From: Opitutia bacterium
GTDB taxonomy: Bacteria > Verrucomicrobiota > Verrucomicrobiia > Opitutales > UBA953
Direction of reading: 5' to 3'
Length of the DNA: 64,000 bases
Assembly: GCA_003569245.1 (NCBI GenBank)
Contig: BGOM01000019.1
Coordinates: 62,001-126,000 of the forward strand
Both the position numbers and the translations under genes were made by a program. The notes under the pieces are model-generated. The model made no database searches. It saw only the letters and a list, made by a program, of their open reading frames with translations, and was not told where the DNA came from. Each line of letters begins with the position of its first letter. Position 1 is the first letter of the stretch. Shown one piece after another: positions 5,544 through 13,180 of the stretch.

Positions 5544-6671
5544 ATGCGCGCCCTGCTCGCCCTTTGCCTCGCTTGCGCGGCGCTCATCGCCGCGGAGCCG
5601 ACGCTCACGCTCGATGGTCCGCGCCCCAACCAGGTCTTCCAGCGCGATAACCGGACAACCGGCGGCGTGAGGGTGGAAGGATCGGTCGCGGGGGTCGATG
5701 ACTATGACACCCCCGTCGCCGAATATCGGCTGGACGGCGGCTCCTGGCGAAAGCTGGGGCTGACCTCGTTCGGACGGATGGACGGACGGACGGTCTTCAA
5801 CGGCGGCTTCCGGGCCGAGACGGGGGCGCATTCCGTCGAGCTCCGGGTGCTGCGCGGCGGCCAGCCTATCGCGACCCAGCCGGCGGTGAAGTTCTTCGTC
5901 GGCGAGGTCTTCGTGGTGACGGGGCAATCCAACTCCGCCAACCACGGCGCCGCCAAGACGAAGGCGACCTCCGACCAGGTCTTCACGCTGACGCCGAAGG
6001 GCGATTGGCAACCGTGCGCCGACCCTCAGCCCGGCGCCTCCGGCAACGGCGGCAGTATTTTGCCCGCCCTGGGCGACGAACTCCAGCAGCGCCTCGGCGT
6101 CCCCATCGGCTTCATCCCGTGCGGCATCGGCGCCACCAGCGTCCGCGAGTGGCTCCCCAGCGGCGTCCCCTTCCCCAACCCGCCGACAATCGTCAGCCGC
6201 GTGCGCAAGACCGCCGACGGCCAATGGGAGTCCGACGGCAAAGCCTACGCGATGCTGGTCAAGCGGATGGAATCCGTCCCCTCCTTCCGGGCGGTGCTCT
6301 GGCACCAAGGCGAAAGCGACGCCAACCAGAAGGATGCGACACGTACGCTGTCCGGCAAACTATACACCGAATACCTTAAGACGCTGATCAGCCGCACCCG
6401 GAAGGACGTCGGGGCCTACCGGTCCGGGCCTTGGTTCGTCGCCCAAGTCAGCTACCACGGGCCCGACGACGTCGGCTCCGAGGATATTCGCGCCGCCCAG
6501 GCGAGCCTGTGGAAGGATAAGGTCGCCCTCGAGGGACCCGACTCCGACGCCCTCCGCGGTCCGCTCCGCGACAACGGCGGCAAAGGCGTCCACTTCTCCG
6601 GCGAGGGCCTCAAGGCCCACGCCCACGCCTGGGCCGAGAAGCTCGTCCCCTGGATCGAAACCCAACGCTGA
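5544..6671 (+). CDS. secreted SASA-family (sialate O-acetylesterase-like) esterase
   Basis: A 375-residue protein with a signal peptide (about residues 1-17). A beta-rich N-terminal region (about 20-115) precedes the SGNH domain, which opens with 'FVVTGQSNSANHG' (nucleophile Ser129) and contains 'LWHQGESDANQ'. The C-terminal 'GVHFSGEGLKAHAHAWAEKL' supplies the catalytic His region. It is the second SASA enzyme of the locus but is clearly divergent from the one at the left edge, which suggests different acetylated positions or backbones. Its start lies 6 bases after the preceding stop without a Shine-Dalgarno sequence. Confidence 0.87.
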   Translation: MRALLALCLACAALIAAEPTLTLDGPRPNQVFQRDNRTTGGVRVEGSVAGVDDYDTPVAEYRLDGGSWRKLGLTSFGRMDGRTVFNGGFRAETGAHSVELRVLRGGQPIATQPAVKFFVGEVFVVTGQSNSANHGAAKTKATSDQVFTLTPKGDWQPCADPQPGASGNGGSILPALGDELQQRLGVPIGFIPCGIGATSVREWLPSGVPFPNPPTIVSRVRKTADGQWESDGKAYAMLVKRMESVPSFRAVLWHQGESDANQKDATRTLSGKLYTEYLKTLISRTRKDVGAYRSGPWFVAQVSYHGPDDVGSEDIRAAQASLWKDKVALEGPDSDALRGPLRDNGGKGVHFSGEGLKAHAHAWAEKLVPWIETQR

Positions 6672-6678
6672 TTTCCCC

Positions 6679-7077
6679 ATGCGCACCCTCCTCGCCGGAC
6701 TCCTCATCGGTCTCTCCACCCTGCACGCCGCGATCTCGCCAGACCACATCCGTCGTCTGCAGGAGGAGGCGGCGGAGGCGCTGGTCATCAAAGCCGACCG
6801 GGTCGAGGTCAAGACCACGCTGGGCAAGGACGGTCGGCAGCTCGACGTGCAGGTCACCGCGAGCGTCCAGTCCGTCCTCCGCTCCAAAGCCGGCCACAAG
6901 CCCGGCGAGGTGGTCAAGATCGCCTACACGATCATCCAGACCGTCATCCCGATGCCCGGCCCTGGCCAACCCAAGGTCCTGGAAAAAGGCGAAACCGTCC
7001 GCGCCTACCTGAACCACACCGCTGACCGGCAAACCCTCGGCCTGGCCGCTTACGGGCACAGTTTCCAGCAACCCTGA
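6679..7077 (+). CDS. small exported protein of unknown function
   Basis: A 132-residue protein with a signal peptide (about residues 1-17, ending LHAA). The mature part begins with a short helix ('[15 protein letters not shown]') followed by a predicted beta-barrel-like run ('[31 protein letters not shown]'). This resembles small OB-like exported proteins that carry 'G-x-V-x-x-Y' repeats, but no family is recognised with confidence. The spacing (7 bases after the esterase, 8 before the sulfatase) places it in the same transcription unit. Confidence 0.6.
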
Positions 7078-7085
7078 ACCCACCG

Positions 7086-8432
7086 ATGCGTCTCGCCCTG
7101 ATCCTGAGCTTACTGGCCGCCGCCCTCGGCGGGGCCGAGAACGTCGACCCAACATCCTGGTCATCGTCAGCGACGACCAAGGTTACGCCGACGTCGGCTT
7201 CAACGGCGGCCGGGCCGTCGCCACGCCGCACCTCGACGCGCTCGCGGCCTCGGGCGTGCGCTGCACCAGCGGCTACGTCTCGCACCCTTTCTGCTCACCG
7301 ACGCGCGCCGGCTTGCTCACCGGGCGCTACCAACAACGCTTCGGGCACGAGAATAACCCGGCCTACGACCCGACCAACGCCAGCCGGCCTGCCGCTGTCC
7401 GAGAAGCTGCTACCGCAGTTCCTCCGTGAGGCGGGTTACCGGACCGGCTGGATCGGCAAGTGGCACCTGGGCGCAACCCCGGCGCACGCGCCCTGGAATC
7501 GAGGCTTCGAGCAAACGTATGGCTTCATCGGCGGCGGGCACATGTTCGCGAACTGGGCCATCAACGCCCAGAAGGAATACAACGTCCCGCTCACCCGCGA
7601 CGGCCAGGCCACCCCGGACGTCCCCGCCCATCTGACCGAGACGTTGGGCCGGGAGGCCGCCGCCTTCATCCGTCGCAACGCCGGCGCGCCCTGGATGCTC
7701 TACCTCGCCTTCAACGCCCCGCACACGCCGCACCAGCCGACCGCCGAACGCGAGCAGAAGTTCGCGGCCGTCGCCGATCCGGTCCGCCGGAAATGCCTGG
7801 CCCAGATCAGCCTGCTCGATGACGCCGTCGGCACGGTCACCCAGGCCTTGGCCGCCAGCGACCAGACCCGGGACACCCTGGTCTTCTTCTTCAGCGACAA
7901 CGGCGGCACGCCGCCCTCCCTGGGCGCGGACAACACCCCGCTGCGGGGGAACAAAGGCATGGTCTACGAAGGCGGCATCCGCGTGCCTTTCGTGATCAGC
8001 TGGCCCGCCCAGCTCAAGGCCGGCTCCGTTTACGCCGAACCCGTGTCGTCGCTGGATGTCGCGGCCACCGCGCTCGCCCTAGCCGGCGTGCCGGCGCCGA
8101 CCGAGCGCAAACTGGACGGCGTCAACCTCGTGCCGTTCCTGAAGGGCGAGGCGAGCGGGCTCCCGCACCCGAACCTCTTCTGGCGCACGGGCGGCGGTCA
8201 GAGTTATGCCGTCCGCGCCGGCAGCTGGAAACTGGTGCGCAACGGCAAGCAACCCGACGAGCTCTACGATCTTTCCCAGGATATCGCGGAAGCCAAGAAC
8301 CTGGCCGCCGCCCAGCCCGAGGTCGCCGCCCGCCTTTCCGCCGAATTGGCCGGATGGAACCAGCAACTGGTCGCGCCCCTCTTCCAGAGCCCCCAGGGGG
8401 GCAAGGCCGACGCCAAAAAGCCGAAGAAATAG
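7086..8432 (+). CDS. secreted sulfatase, formylglycine family, with two compensating frame breaks
   Basis: Signal peptide and C-terminal three quarters lie in one frame. The segment about 7145-7384 is read in another and contains the essential N-terminal blocks: '[16 protein letters not shown]' (metal Asp pair) and '[12 protein letters not shown]' (C-x-P-T-R, the formylglycine Cys). A missing base near 7144 and an extra C at about 7385 restore each other, so the intact protein is a normal sulfatase of about 448 residues. '[10 protein letters not shown]' and '[12 protein letters not shown]' follow in frame. The C-terminus is the Lys-rich KADAKKPKK. The breaks are more likely sequence errors than inactivation, because the out-of-frame stretch is still perfectly conserved. 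Confidence 0.88.
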
Positions 8433-8468
8433 GCCCGTCCCGCGAAAGCGGACGACAAAGCTTTCCTT

Positions 8469-8545
<77 letters not shown>

Positions 8546-8559
8546 AGAAAGGAAGGTTC

Positions 8560-8588
8560 GTTAAGCCCAAGGGGGGCGGAGATGTCAA
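8560..8588 (-). promoter_or_regulatory. putative promoter of tRNA-Pro
   Basis: On the - strand a perfect TTGACA (8588-8583) is followed 17 bases later by CTTAAC (8565-8560). This ends about 14 bases before the mature 5' end of the tRNA. The -35 is ideal and the -10 weak. Confidence 0.5.
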
Positions 8589-8589
8589 C

Positions 8590-8630
8590 CCGACAAACAA
8601 AACCGCCCCTTTCCTCGACAGAAAGGGCGG
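8590..8630 (-). terminator. intrinsic-terminator-like hairpin upstream of tRNA-Pro
   Basis: Arms 8603-8613 and 8621-8630 (CCGCC(C)CTTTC / GAAAGGGCGG) form a 10-bp stem with one bulged C. On the - strand it is followed by TTTTGTTTG, a terminator tail. It lies just upstream of the tRNA promoter, so it may block antisense transcription coming from the sulfatase at 8650. Confidence 0.45.
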
Positions 8631-8649
8631 GATTGCCTAAGAAAACGGC

Positions 8650-10161
8650 ATGCGACGTCTCCCCGCGTTCCTCCTGCTGGTCGTGACCGCCTGGGCGACC
8701 GCGGCGGAGTCCCGACCGAACATCGTGTTCATCCTGGCCGACGACCTGGGCTACGGCGAGGTCGGCTTCAACGGACAGAAAAAAATCCTGACGCCGAACC
8801 TCGACCGGCTGGCCCGCGAAGGTCTCGTGCTCAACCGACACTACTGCGGCAACGCGGTCTGCGCGCCGTCCCGCGCGGTGCTGATGACCGGCCTCAATCC
8901 CGGTCAGGCGCCGGTGCGCGACAACGCGGACGTCGGCCAAGGCGAGCAGATTCCCTTGCCGGCGGGTATCATGACCCTGCCGAACACCTTGAAGAAGGCC
9001 GGCTACAAGACCGCGGCGTTCGGCAAGTGGGGCCTGGGTGGCATGGACTCGACGGGCAATATCTTCCAACAAGGCTTCGATCACTTCATCGGGCTCACCA
9101 GCCAATGGCAGGCGCATAGCCACTACCCCGCGGCGCTCTGGGTGGACGATAAGCTGACGCCGCTCAACAACGGGCCGCAGGGTGTGCCGGGCCACGGCGG
9201 CTTCCCGGCCGGCGCCGACGTGAACGACCCGGCGAACTACGCCGCGTTCATCGGTCAGGACTTCGCCCCGGACCATTTCATCCGCGGGGCCGAGGCCTTC
9301 ATCGCGGCGAACGCGAAGACTCCTTTCTTCCTCTACTTCCCGTCCCCGCTGCCGCACGTCTCGCTGCAGATCCCGACGGAGGACCTCAAGGATTACGCCG
9401 GCAAATTCCCCGAGGACAAACCCTTCGCCCCGGCGGCGAAGGGCTCCTACGTACCGAACCGCACCCCTTACGCGACCTACGCCGCGATGATCACCCGCCT
9501 CGACAAGGACGTCGGGCGGATCCTCGCCGCGCTCGAGCAAGCCGGCGTCGCCGACAACACGATCATCGTCTTCACCGGCGACAACGGGGCCACCCATGAC
9601 GTCGGCGGCGTGGACACGAAGTTCTTCGCCTCCGCGGGCGGACTGCGCGGACTCAAGGGCTCCCTGCACGAAGGCGGCGTCCGCGAGCCGACCGTGGTAC
9701 GCTGGCCGGCCGCGATCAAGCCGGGCCGGCGCTCGGACCTGACCTCGGGCTTCGAGGACTGGCTCCTCACCTTCGCCGACCTCGCCGGCGTCAAGCCGTC
9801 CGGCCCGACGACCGGCGAAAGCCTCGTGCCCACGCTCAAGGGCGAACCCCAGACCCGCGTCCACCCGCTCTACCGCGAGTTCCCCGGCTACGGCCACCAG
9901 CAGGCCATCTGGGACGGCAAGTGGAAAGCCATCCGCACCGAGATGCTCAAGCAGGTCAACCAGACCGGCAAGGTGACCACGCAACTGTACGACCTCGATG
10001 CCGACCCGGCCGAAGCCAACGACCTCGCGGCGAAGTTCCCGGAGGTGGTCAAGGAACTCGAGGCGAAGATGGCCGCGGCCCGCCGGCCCAACCCGCTGTT
10101 CCCGGTGGCCGGTCTCGACCCGCTGCCGGAAGGCAAGGCCAAGAAGAAGGCCGCCAAGTAA
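8650..10161 (+). CDS. secreted sulfatase (arylsulfatase A type)
   Basis: A 503-residue protein with a signal peptide (about residues 1-20). Motifs in order: 'FILADDLGYGEVGFNG' (Asp pair 31-32), 'VCAPSRAVLMTG' (C-x-P-S-R, Cys71 to become formylglycine), 'AAFGKWGLGG', and 'VFTGDNGATHDVGG'. The length and block order match the bacterial arylsulfatases that attack sulfated polysaccharides. The C-terminus ends in KAKKKAAK. It starts a new + strand unit after the tRNA and is followed 4 bases later by the redoxin-cytochrome fusion gene, so the two may be co-transcribed. Confidence 0.93.
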   Translation: MRRLPAFLLLVVTAWATAAESRPNIVFILADDLGYGEVGFNGQKKILTPNLDRLAREGLVLNRHYCGNAVCAPSRAVLMTGLNPGQAPVRDNADVGQGEQIPLPAGIMTLPNTLKKAGYKTAAFGKWGLGGMDSTGNIFQQGFDHFIGLTSQWQAHSHYPAALWVDDKLTPLNNGPQGVPGHGGFPAGADVNDPANYAAFIGQDFAPDHFIRGAEAFIAANAKTPFFLYFPSPLPHVSLQIPTEDLKDYAGKFPEDKPFAPAAKGSYVPNRTPYATYAAMITRLDKDVGRILAALEQAGVADNTIIVFTGDNGATHDVGGVDTKFFASAGGLRGLKGSLHEGGVREPTVVRWPAAIKPGRRSDLTSGFEDWLLTFADLAGVKPSGPTTGESLVPTLKGEPQTRVHPLYREFPGYGHQQAIWDGKWKAIRTEMLKQVNQTGKVTTQLYDLDADPAEANDLAAKFPEVVKELEAKMAAARRPNPLFPVAGLDPLPEGKAKKKAAK

Positions 10162-10165
10162 GCCC

Positions 10166-11908
10166 ATGCGCCTGTTCCTCGCGCTGCTCGGAATGACCGG
10201 CCTGGGGTCGCCCCTGATCGCGGGCGAGGCCCCCACCCTCCTGCCCGGCCGACAGGTGCCGGATATCGCGTTCACGGATCTGGGCGGCAAGCCCCACCGG
10301 CTCGCGAACGCCTCCCGCTACGCGGGTATGGCGATCGCGCTCTCCAGCTCCACGTGTCCGGTGAGCAAGCGGCAGATGCCTTCGCTCGCGAAGCTGGAGC
10401 AGGAACTCTCCAACCGCGGGATCGCCCTGCTCGTGCTCAACCCGATGAAGACCGAGACGGACGACGAGATCCGCGCGCAAGTGGCGGCGGCCGGCGTCCG
10501 GTCGACCGTCTGCCACGACGCGACCCAGGTGGTCGCCCGCGCCCTGCAGGCGCGTACCACGACGGAGGTCTTCCTCCTGGCGCCGGATCGCACGCTGGTC
10601 TACCGGGGCGCCCTCGATGACCAATACGGCCCGACCTTCAGCCGCGAGGCGCCGACGGTCAGCCACCTGCTCGAGGCCGCTGACGCGCTCAAGGCGGGTC
10701 GCAAACCGCGACGGCCTCTCACCGAGGCCCCGGGCTGCGAACTCGACCTCGGGCCGCGACCGGACGCCGTGCCGACGAGCCTGACCTACCACCGCGATAT
10801 CGCGCGGATCCTGCAGCAGCATTGCGTGGACTGCCACCGCCCCGAGGGTATCGCGCCCTTCCGCCTGGATACGGTGGCGGCCGTGACGGAGCGCGCCAAG
10901 ACCATCCGCCGGGTCGTGACCGAGGGCCAGATGCCCCCGTGGTTCGCCGCCCCGCCCACGGGCGGGAAGCCGAGCCCTTGGGCCAACGACTGCGCCCTGC
11001 CCGCCTCGGACCGACGGGACCTGCTGGCTTGGCTCGACTCCGCGGATCGTCCTCTGGGCGATCCGGCCGACGCGCCCAAGCCCCGGACCTACCCGGGGGC
11101 CTGGAGCATCGGCCCACCCGACGCGGTGCTGCCGATCAGCCGACCGCATGCGATCAAGGCCGACGGTTTCATGCGCTACGAGCATGACACCATCGAGACG
11201 TCCTTCCCCGAGGATCGCTGGGTGCAGGCGTACGAGATCCTGCCCACGGCGCGCGGGGTGGTGCACCATGTCATCGTCCGCTGCATCCCGAAGGGCAAGA
11301 AGGTCTCCTTCGGCGGGGCCGAGGACTACTGGGCGGCCTACGTGCCGGGCAACGGCAGCCATGTCTACCCGACCGGCTTCGCGCGCAAACTGCCCGCCGG
11401 CGCGACGCTGACGTTCCAGATCCACTACACGCCCAACGGCCAGGCTACCACCGACCAACTGAAGATCGGCCTGCGCTTCGCGAAGTCCCCGCCGCGCCAT
11501 GAGATGCGCACGGTCGGTCTGGCCAACCTCCGGCTCGACATCCCTCCGGGCGCCGCCCGCCACGTCGAGACGCTGGTCCGGCCCGTGCCGGTCGACCTGC
11601 CGGTCACCGCGCTGATGGCCCACATGCACGTGCGGGGCGCGGCCTTCAGGTTCGAGCTGCTCGGGGCGGACGGCTCCGTGGAGACGTTGCTCGACCTCCC
11701 CCGCTACGACTTCAACTGGCAGCTCCGGCACGACTATGCCGAGCCGCGCGTCCTTCCGCAGGGCAGCCGGGTACGGATCACCGCGGTCTTCGACAACAGC
11801 GCCGCGAACCCGGCCAACCCCGACCCGACCAGACGGGTGCGCTGGGGCGAGCAGACCACCGACGAGATGATGATCGGCTACGTCGAATACTACGTCCCGG
11901 TCCGCTGA
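10166..11908 (+). CDS. exported redoxin - cytochrome c - Cu(II) ascorbate-dependent monooxygenase-like fusion protein
   Basis: A 580-residue protein in three parts. After a signal peptide (about 1-20), residues 25-180 form a thioredoxin/AhpC-like domain with a single cysteine in 'SSSTCPVSK' (Cys64). Residues 205-295 contain 'HCVDCHRPEG', a C-x-x-C-H haem-c site (Cys220-His224). Residues 300-575 resemble the peptidylglycine/dopamine monooxygenase copper domains: 'GVVHHVIV', 'FQIHYTPNG', 'MAHMHVRGAAF' and 'TDEMMIGYVEYY' supply His and Met copper ligands. This architecture is typical of the Planctomycetes-Verrucomicrobia group; its substrate is unknown. The start gives the export signal and follows the sulfatase stop by 4 bases. 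Confidence 0.82.
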   Translation: MRLFLALLGMTGLGSPLIAGEAPTLLPGRQVPDIAFTDLGGKPHRLANASRYAGMAIALSSSTCPVSKRQMPSLAKLEQELSNRGIALLVLNPMKTETDDEIRAQVAAAGVRSTVCHDATQVVARALQARTTTEVFLLAPDRTLVYRGALDDQYGPTFSREAPTVSHLLEAADALKAGRKPRRPLTEAPGCELDLGPRPDAVPTSLTYHRDIARILQQHCVDCHRPEGIAPFRLDTVAAVTERAKTIRRVVTEGQMPPWFAAPPTGGKPSPWANDCALPASDRRDLLAWLDSADRPLGDPADAPKPRTYPGAWSIGPPDAVLPISRPHAIKADGFMRYEHDTIETSFPEDRWVQAYEILPTARGVVHHVIVRCIPKGKKVSFGGAEDYWAAYVPGNGSHVYPTGFARKLPAGATLTFQIHYTPNGQATTDQLKIGLRFAKSPPRHEMRTVGLANLRLDIPPGAARHVETLVRPVPVDLPVTALMAHMHVRGAAFRFELLGADGSVETLLDLPRYDFNWQLRHDYAEPRVLPQGSRVRITAVFDNSAANPANPDPTRRVRWGEQTTDEMMIGYVEYYVPVR

Positions 11909-11915
11909 GCGGGTC

Positions 11916-13121
11916 TTAGGCGCCGCCGCGGCGGATCTCGGAACCTTCGAAGCGGATCGAGACACGCCAGACCTTCTTCAGGCGCGTCAGGATGCGGCCC
12001 GTCGTCAGGTCGACCGACTCCGGGATCTCGATGCGGTGCTGGTCCACGACGGCGTGGAAACCGCGCTCGGAGAAGATGTCGATGAACATCGCGATCGCCA
12101 GGGCGTCGTCGAAGACCGGAGTCTCGATGTTGACGTGAGCCTGGCCGGAGATGGCGTGGGAGCGGATGATCGGCAGGAACTTCTCCTGGATCAGCTCGAT
12201 CACCCGGCGGAACAGCACGGTCTGGCGCTCGGCGTAATCGTCCAGACGGCGGACGAGGTCCTGGCGGGCGTGCTGGGTGATCTGCGACGACAGCGGGATC
12301 GGCGAGATGAGGTCGTAGGTCTCCTCCGACAACTCGAGGGAGCTCTGGTACTGCAGCTCCTTGATGATGCGGGCCTGGACCTCGGGCAGCGAGCCCTGGG
12401 CGTTGATGAAATGGTAGTGGAAGATGTCCCGCAGCGACTGCAGCGGCTCGTAGGTGCGCTCCTTGAAGACGCGGTAGCGGTTGCGGGCGGCCTCGGCGCT
12501 GAGGTCGGTCTTGCGCACCTCGATCTCGGGGGCGCCGTCGCGCTTGGCGCGCTCGTTCTGTTCGAGGCATTCCTGACCGCGCTTGAGCTGGCGGCGGACC
12601 GACTCGTTCTCGTCGACGAAGAGGACGAGGATGTGGAAATGGGGCTTGGGGAAACGGACGCCGTCCGCGGTGTGCCGGAACTCCTGGCGGAGGTCGTTGA
12701 GCCGCGCGAAGAGGTGCTTGAGGCACTCCACCTGGACCATCGAGCGCGGGAAGCCGTCGACCACGGCCCCGGTGACGTACTGGGGCTCGAGCAGTTTGCG
12801 AAAGAGGATCTCGACCACCTCGCGATCGCCGACGAGCATGCCGGCGTCGATACGCTTCTTGGCCTCGGGGCTGGAAAGAAGGTCGCTGACCACGATGGGC
12901 TCGGCGCCGTAGTCGCGGTACTGAAGGATGAACTGGGTGTTGGTACCCTTGCCGGCCCCCGGGGCGCCGTTCAGCCAGAAGATCTCGCGGGGGAACGACA
13001 GCTTGGCCCGGCCGAACTCCCGCTCGAGGCTGGACCAGACGGAGTCGAAGATGATCTGGCCATCCTTGACCTCAAGGTCGCTGATGCCGTTGCCGGCCGG
13101 TCTGGCGGGAGCTTCGCTCAT
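11916..13121 (-). CDS. adenylate-kinase-like nucleoside monophosphate kinase with long C-terminal extension
   Basis: A 401-residue protein. 'NGAPGAGKGTNTQ' (P-loop, about 51-63) and 'DGFPRS' (122-127) are diagnostic of adenylate and related NMP kinases, which transfer phosphate between nucleotides. A normal adenylate kinase is about 190-220 residues. Here an N-terminal segment of about 45 residues precedes the P-loop and some 170 residues follow the kinase core. The tail contains 'DLISPIPLSSQITQHARQDL' and 'ISGQAHVNIETPVFDDALA' and has no recognised domain. The chosen ATG follows the open frame's earlier, less likely start. The stop converges on the fusion-protein gene with 7 bases between them. 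Confidence 0.75.
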   Translation of the reverse strand: MSEAPARPAGNGISDLEVKDGQIIFDSVWSSLEREFGRAKLSFPREIFWLNGAPGAGKGTNTQFILQYRDYGAEPIVVSDLLSSPEAKKRIDAGMLVGDREVVEILFRKLLEPQYVTGAVVDGFPRSMVQVECLKHLFARLNDLRQEFRHTADGVRFPKPHFHILVLFVDENESVRRQLKRGQECLEQNERAKRDGAPEIEVRKTDLSAEAARNRYRVFKERTYEPLQSLRDIFHYHFINAQGSLPEVQARIIKELQYQSSLELSEETYDLISPIPLSSQITQHARQDLVRRLDDYAERQTVLFRRVIELIQEKFLPIIRSHAISGQAHVNIETPVFDDALAIAMFIDIFSERGFHAVVDQHRIEIPESVDLTTGRILTRLKKVWRVSIRFEGSEIRRGGA

Positions 13122-13180
13122 GCGTGGGGGAAAAGGAGTGATAGCACCCCCCACCCGCTTCGGGCGAGGCGAAAAACGCC

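Follow-up and report, generated by a model that had tools for sequence, protein, structure and literature searches.

One gene of an Opitutia bacterium joins, in a single chain of 580 residues, a thioredoxin-like domain, a haem c domain and a two-copper domain of the PHM/DBH kind, and we consider it probable that its product is an exported O2-dependent hydroxylase with the PHM/DBH fold, supplied with electrons by its own attached cytochrome c rather than by free ascorbate. The gene is an open and intact reading frame (10166–11908) on contig BGOM01000019.1, of which we analysed a stretch of 64,000 nt (the window); all coordinates are positions in this window, and all features of the gene lie on its + strand. 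From the N-terminus, a signal-peptide-like start (residues 1–20, 10166–10225) is followed by the thioredoxin-like domain (residues 27–195, 10244–10750), the mono-haem cytochrome c-like domain (residues 205–300, 10778–11065) and the two-copper domain (residues 318–580, 11117–11905). Read by eye, the N-terminus, MRLFLALLGMTGLGSPLIAGEA, resembles a Sec signal peptide. A preliminary description of this DNA had proposed three redox modules in a single exported chain; our analysis confirms the domains, the full set of copper ligands and the PHM/DBH fold, with export read by eye. The architecture is real and unusual. It is not a chance product, since all ligands are kept in 137 of 137 alignment rows and dN/dS among the three closest copies (the window gene and those in loci L004 and L005) is 0.15–0.17; the window gene is under purifying selection.

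Enzymes of the copper type II monooxygenase superfamily carry two coppers about 11 Å apart and catalyse ascorbate-dependent hydroxylation. Sequence and model together identify the C-terminal part of the window protein as a predicted two-copper domain of this PHM/DBH kind, in which we infer that both sites are occupied. Pfam places Cu2_monoox_C below threshold in the window protein (16.2 bits against a cut-off of 23, E 0.0076) and above the cut-off in relatives, e.g. that of L204 (33.3 bits); Pfam E-values by themselves would have missed the domain. A profile of the haem-copper part matches DBH (4zel) at 1.5e-10 and PHM entries at 2e-5, with the HH, HY and HxH motifs in register in the main stretch of the alignment and the DEM motif aligned to SSDEM of PHM in a second, weak stretch. 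An AlphaFold2 model built from 19 alignment rows (pLDDT 82, pTM 0.59; model residue n is protein residue n+19) superposes on PHM over model residues 300–561 (Z 20.7, rmsd 2.7, 246 residues aligned) and on DBH with Z 20.2, spanning model residues 199–561; Foldseek likewise ranks PHM first (1.4e-13). The predicted ligands of CuH are His367 and His368 (11264–11269; H107 and H108 of PHM, aligned to its VHH) and His420 (11423–11425; H172), those of CuM His486 and His488 in an His-Met-His motif (11621–11629; H242 and H244) and Met568 of DEM (11867–11869; M314). All six are kept in 137 of 137 rows, the window included, these being the rows that align over the copper part after one further split fragment was dropped. 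Gln519 is also invariant (137/137) and aligns with a Gln kept in DBH, while Gln418, two residues before His420, is found in 121 of the 137 rows. The alignment of fused proteins comprises 82 rows, one of which (L172) is broken by a stop; all 81 intact ones keep CxxCH, Met256, His367, His368, His420, His486, His488 and Met568. With its six ligands (137/137) and the PHM fold (Z 20.7), the protein has the ligand set and fold of the superfamily, and the structure prediction that the preliminary description had put forward as a check on both copper sites bears them out only at the level of fold and ligands. We also considered, and rejected, an LPMO identity: the protein has no N-terminal His for a His brace, its first His being residue 44, beyond any signal-peptide cleavage site.

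The haem c domain carries the attachment motif CVDCH (residues 220–224, 10823–10837) and, in MPPW, Met256 (10931–10933) as the probable axial ligand. Both features of class I c-type cytochromes, CxxCH and the distal Met, are kept in 136 of 137 rows, the single CxxCH miss being a split fragment. Pfam leaves only a trace of Cytochrome_CBB3 in the window protein (0.0022, below cut-off), and a profile of the haem domain matches cytochrome c555 (9l08) at 4e-7. Folded alone, the domain yields a weak model (pLDDT 72.5) for which cytochrome c is absent from the few fold-search rows listed and no fold match was obtained; such a poor isolated model leaves a cytochrome c fold compatible with the prediction. 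Both haem c and O2 use are within reach of the host, whose genome includes genes for c-type cytochrome assembly proteins (PF01578) and for subunit I of a haem-copper oxidase (PF00115). Directly upstream of a three-domain relative, L054 encodes a multihaem cytochrome c with TPR repeats (6369–8669, +), a possible electron donor.

The N-terminal domain is the part most readily recognized: Pfam assigns it above threshold to AhpC-TSA (3e-9) and Redoxin (6e-7), and the matches of a single-sequence PDB search with the window protein are confined to it (3u5r, 1.5e-11). Residues 1–180 of the model match the PRX-like thioredoxins 2ywo/2cvb, 3u5r and 2ywi at Z 22.4–22.9 (22.9 for 2ywo, 22.7 for 3u5r), and all features of that group are present, i.e. 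the fold, the CPxx motif and a C-terminal GC cysteine. The domain had been described as a single-cysteine redoxin. Its CPVS motif indeed holds one cysteine, Cys64 (10355–10357), conserved in 80 of 82 fused rows, but the label is misleading, as a second one, Cys191 (10736–10738), stands in the GC motif at the domain end, is conserved alongside it (78/82) and is its probable redox partner. Both are present in 77 of 81 fused rows; of the others, two lack both, one lacks Cys191 alone and one is gapped at Cys64. A third cysteine, making CPxC, occurs in 17 of 81. Where the matched stretch of a separate thioredoxin gene extends that far, it mostly shows this pair too. The thiol pair is accessory, since it has been lost as a pair in L061 and in one L185 copy, where all metal ligands are kept. 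L185 (82–5486, –) contains three tandem copies of the three-domain gene, of which the middle one lacks both thioredoxin cysteines and has its metal ligands intact.

The thioredoxin-like domain and the haem-copper part form a real partnership, in which the core unit is haem plus copper and the thioredoxin a statistically linked partner. This signal comes from the proximity of separate genes and from repeated fusion or fission. Among 138 core ORFs in 133 loci, the thioredoxin is fused in 81, encoded next door in 19 and neither in 38; the 19 include L172, where one in-frame stop between domains interrupts a fused gene, and the 38 include two pieces of a single gene. Four loci were dropped from this set and from the neighbour counts: L049 (which repeats the L006 locus), L068 (gene truncated at the contig end), L131 (a very short contig) and L019 (thioredoxin only). 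The neighbour test also omits L172 from the unfused set and the two L220 fragments, one of which was left out of the ligand count, tree, dN/dS and peptide-residue analysis as well. A separate thioredoxin gene lies within 1 kb of 18 of the 54 unfused cores, always on the same strand, against 2 in 472 kb of their farther flanks (p about 6e-12), and within 1 kb of none of the 81 fused cores. It is mostly upstream of the core, and downstream in four loci (L007, L008, L209 and L211). On a tree of the 137 rows, made by a quick method, with two long branches flagged and L172 counted as fused, at least 10 changes between the fused and unfused states are required; setting "fused" against every other label raises this to 12, 7 of them forced by starred branches. 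Fusion or fission of the redoxin and the haem-copper unit has thus happened many times over, which speaks for a functional pairing rather than an accident of fusion. It is nevertheless dispensable in part of the family, as 32 of 137 core genes have neither a fused nor an adjacent copy; 5 more, all unfused and with either short flanks, a stop or a fused neighbour, are unsure.

What the redoxin does for its partner admits an alternative that we take seriously while judging it the less probable reading, namely that it is a biogenesis helper rather than part of a catalytic electron path, the haem-copper part still being an oxygenase. It would keep the CxxCH thiols reduced for haem attachment or assist copper loading, much as ResA/CcmG and TlpA do in the biogenesis of other cytochromes and oxidases. 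Next in structural similarity to the domain come ResA and further TlpA/DsbE-like proteins, and the domain can be a separate gene and is missing from about a quarter of core genes (the 32 of 137). PRX-like proteins are, however, far better neighbours (Z 22.9, compared with 16.6 for ResA-like proteins), the motif that is strictly kept consists of Cys64 and Cys191, with CxxC in only 17 of 81 fused rows, and a maturation factor does not require fusion.

In PHM and DBH, ascorbate supplies one electron to each copper, and O2 reacting at CuM leads to hydroxylation of a C–H bond. For the window protein, the joining of three redox modules, with a complete ligand set on a PHM/DBH-type fold, makes the electron path into a copper oxygenase, as put forward in the preliminary description, plausible. 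With CuH bound by its three His and CuM by its two His and Met568, O2 would be activated at CuM, as in the PHM mechanism, and a C–H bond of a small organic or glycan-derived substrate would be hydroxylated. Single electrons would be handed from periplasmic donors to the copper pair by haem c, held by CxxCH and Met256. Essentially all members have this fold joined to haem c, a one-electron carrier, and the simplest reading is hence that the haem replaces ascorbate. The thioredoxin-like domain, a fused or neighbouring accessory, would act through Cys64 and Cys191 as a thiol-disulfide pair, serving the haem-copper unit as thiol reductant or peroxide sink; the two thiols may be a source of electrons, a means of clearing peroxide or an aid to assembly. 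The broader view, of a self-sufficient and widespread bacterial branch of DBH/PHM in which the attached cytochrome c, helped by the fused or neighbouring thioredoxin, replaces ascorbate as electron supply, has in our estimate slightly less than an even chance of being right.

The haem-copper unit might alternatively be no oxygenase at all, the protein using the PHM scaffold only to handle copper, peroxide or electrons, as a periplasmic peroxidase, a cuprous oxidase or a redox sensor would. The redoxin domain would suit peroxide or thiol chemistry, relatives carry extra modules such as Ig domains and TPR arrays, and neighbours are unconserved apart from the thioredoxin. We regard this as unlikely, given that none of the 137 rows has lost either mononuclear copper site, or the CuM ligand Met568 needed for the oxygenase reaction, and that the invariant Gln519 aligns with the Gln kept in DBH. 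An O2-dependent hydroxylase remains our preferred reading.

The preliminary description had placed this architecture in Planctomycetes-type bacteria. It is indeed found in Planctomycetota, but is not restricted to them. In a first scan of contigs, 16 loci were found, assigned by record title to Verrucomicrobiota, Planctomycetota, Armatimonadota, Bacteroidota and Acidobacteria, the Acidobacteria match covering the thioredoxin part only. Subsequent counts are lower bounds, because the phylum searches scored few candidates per genome. At E 1e-20 there are matches in at least 122 of 294 sampled genomes of Planctomycetota (the phylum of L007), at least 53 of 151 in the phylum to which L009 belongs and at least 17 of 198 in a search that started from a Bacteroidota core. 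Within the window's own phylum at least 52 of 387 genomes match at E 1e-10, mostly to the thioredoxin part only; the haem-copper part is present in at least 18 of the 387 genomes among the matches listed, plus one fragment at a contig end. Two Bacteroidota haem-copper proteins without the thioredoxin (L016, 7968–9494, and L018, 7995–9494) end in a type 9 secretion tail (Por_Secre_tail) and are therefore probably secreted. The haem-copper proteins of L063, L065, L066, L245 and L247 show a different accessory arrangement, with long C-terminal TPR arrays, and the relative in L061 carries Ig domains.

More doubtful than a non-oxygenase role is an oxidative attack on sulfated or acetylated glycans in concert with the upstream sulfatase, LPMO-like in effect and on a different fold. 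The sulfatase gene (8650–10161, +; PF00884, E 2.6e-57) ends four bases before the start of the three-domain gene. The same 4-base gap is kept in L004 and L005, and a sulfatase is directly upstream also in L006 (58% identical); gene calling in this comparison of close relatives used a simple purpose-written codon-usage script. Genes for SASA and BD-FAE esterases lie upstream of the three-domain gene in the window, and same-strand sulfatases are found directly downstream of the gene in L173, L177 and L191. Against this, a sulfatase within 1 kb is missing from 84 of 89 other loci and present in five, in three of these on the same strand. The density near the core in these loci is 0.029 per kb against 0.007–0.012 farther out (p 0.038 for all sulfatases, 0.10 for the same strand), and a second test with one query on 129 loci gave p 0.15 and 0.22, the window and L004–L006 being left out of both. 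The 2.45 Mb host genome has 39 sulfatase matches, so finding one next to the gene by chance would be no rarity. Small molecules and the ends of peptides are the substrates of the known PHM/DBH enzymes, and a single glycan partner cannot account for a family of this spread. The link to sulfatases and glycans, and the co-occurrence suggested as a check on it, thus hold in the window lineage and are weak or absent elsewhere; we take the sulfatase link to be real for this lineage and not the key to the family.

Just upstream of this sulfatase, a second one (7013–8432, +) is split over two frames (matches 7013–7429 and 7026–8432), either by an assembly-error frameshift or because the gene has decayed. 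On the other side, a convergent gene (11916–13154, –) encodes a protein whose N-terminal half is adenylate kinase-like and whose C-terminal half has no clear Pfam match. Unbiased clustering and annotation of neighbours across the loci gave no general substrate hint, and together with the neighbour tests revealed no conserved neighbour beyond the thioredoxin. The recurrent ones (DUF1501, PSD1/PSCyt genes, an FAD/FMN oxidoreductase and WD40 proteins) occur mostly within groups of close relatives. Neighbour p values of 0.001 to 0.07, BD-FAE among them, were set aside, as they concern few loci and families picked post hoc. In five related genomes (L153, L155, L158, L159 and L160) the gene lies near a same-strand fusion of FAD_binding_3 and Oxidored_FMN, possibly a hint of an aromatic substrate.

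A bacterial peptidylglycine hydroxylase making C-terminally amidated peptides, as the shared fold and copper ligands of PHM might suggest, is very improbable on sequence grounds, because Arg240 and Asn316 of PHM, which we take to be its peptide-carboxylate binders, correspond to Met484 and Ile570 here and are absent from all rows (Arg 0/137, Asn 0/137), and the Pfam search finds no PAL lyase domain in the chain.

PHM and DBH are the textbook copper oxygenases that take electrons singly from ascorbate, and enzymes of their kind make amidated hormones and noradrenaline. How a PHM/DBH-type centre can be fed in organisms without ascorbate could be tested on this family, with its attached cytochrome c and linked thioredoxin. 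The family is common, as the at least 122 matching genomes among 294 sampled Planctomycetota illustrate, and would extend the known C–H hydroxylases by a large periplasmic or secreted class, in which the fused enzyme could be a self-contained catalyst. Should the self-sufficient branch be confirmed, the hydroxylases of animal hormones and neurotransmitters would be relatives of many exported bacterial oxygenases. In agreement with the preliminary description, we found no assigned function for, or account of, the haem/thioredoxin/copper architecture in open-licence PMC papers, an absence that is weak evidence; nor does a bacterial PHM appear in the part of PMC6919629 consulted.

Several known systems resemble parts of the window protein. 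Rat PHM (1phm/3mih) shares the C-terminal fold, the six copper ligands and the Gln two residues before the third CuH His; the window protein differs from it in its low identity (16%), in lacking the peptide-carboxylate Arg and Asn, in the attached haem c and thioredoxin and in having no lyase partner in the chain. Human DBH (4zel) is the best sequence match of the core (1.5e-10; Z 20.2) and, like the window protein, has an N-terminal accessory domain; in DBH this is a DOMON domain, whereas here the accessory domains are a c-type cytochrome and a thioredoxin. The PRX-like thioredoxins 2ywo/2cvb, 3u5r and 2ywi, themselves uncharacterised, share the fold (Z 22–23), CPxx and the C-terminal GC cysteine, but are single-domain proteins, while here the domain is fused to a haem-copper protein or encoded beside it. 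ResA/TlpA thiol-disulfide reductases, also extracytoplasmic and of thioredoxin fold, are weaker neighbours (Z up to 16.6), and their CxxC active site is found in only 17 of 81 fused rows. Cellobiose dehydrogenase (CDH) and LPMO are separate proteins; the haem of CDH is haem b, not haem c, and the copper site of LPMO is a His brace on another fold. As a working analogy, a haem protein feeding a copper oxygenase may be likened to CDH acting as an electron source for LPMO (PMC5094447). The fold class of the copper domain is known; its combination with cytochrome c and thioredoxin is new.
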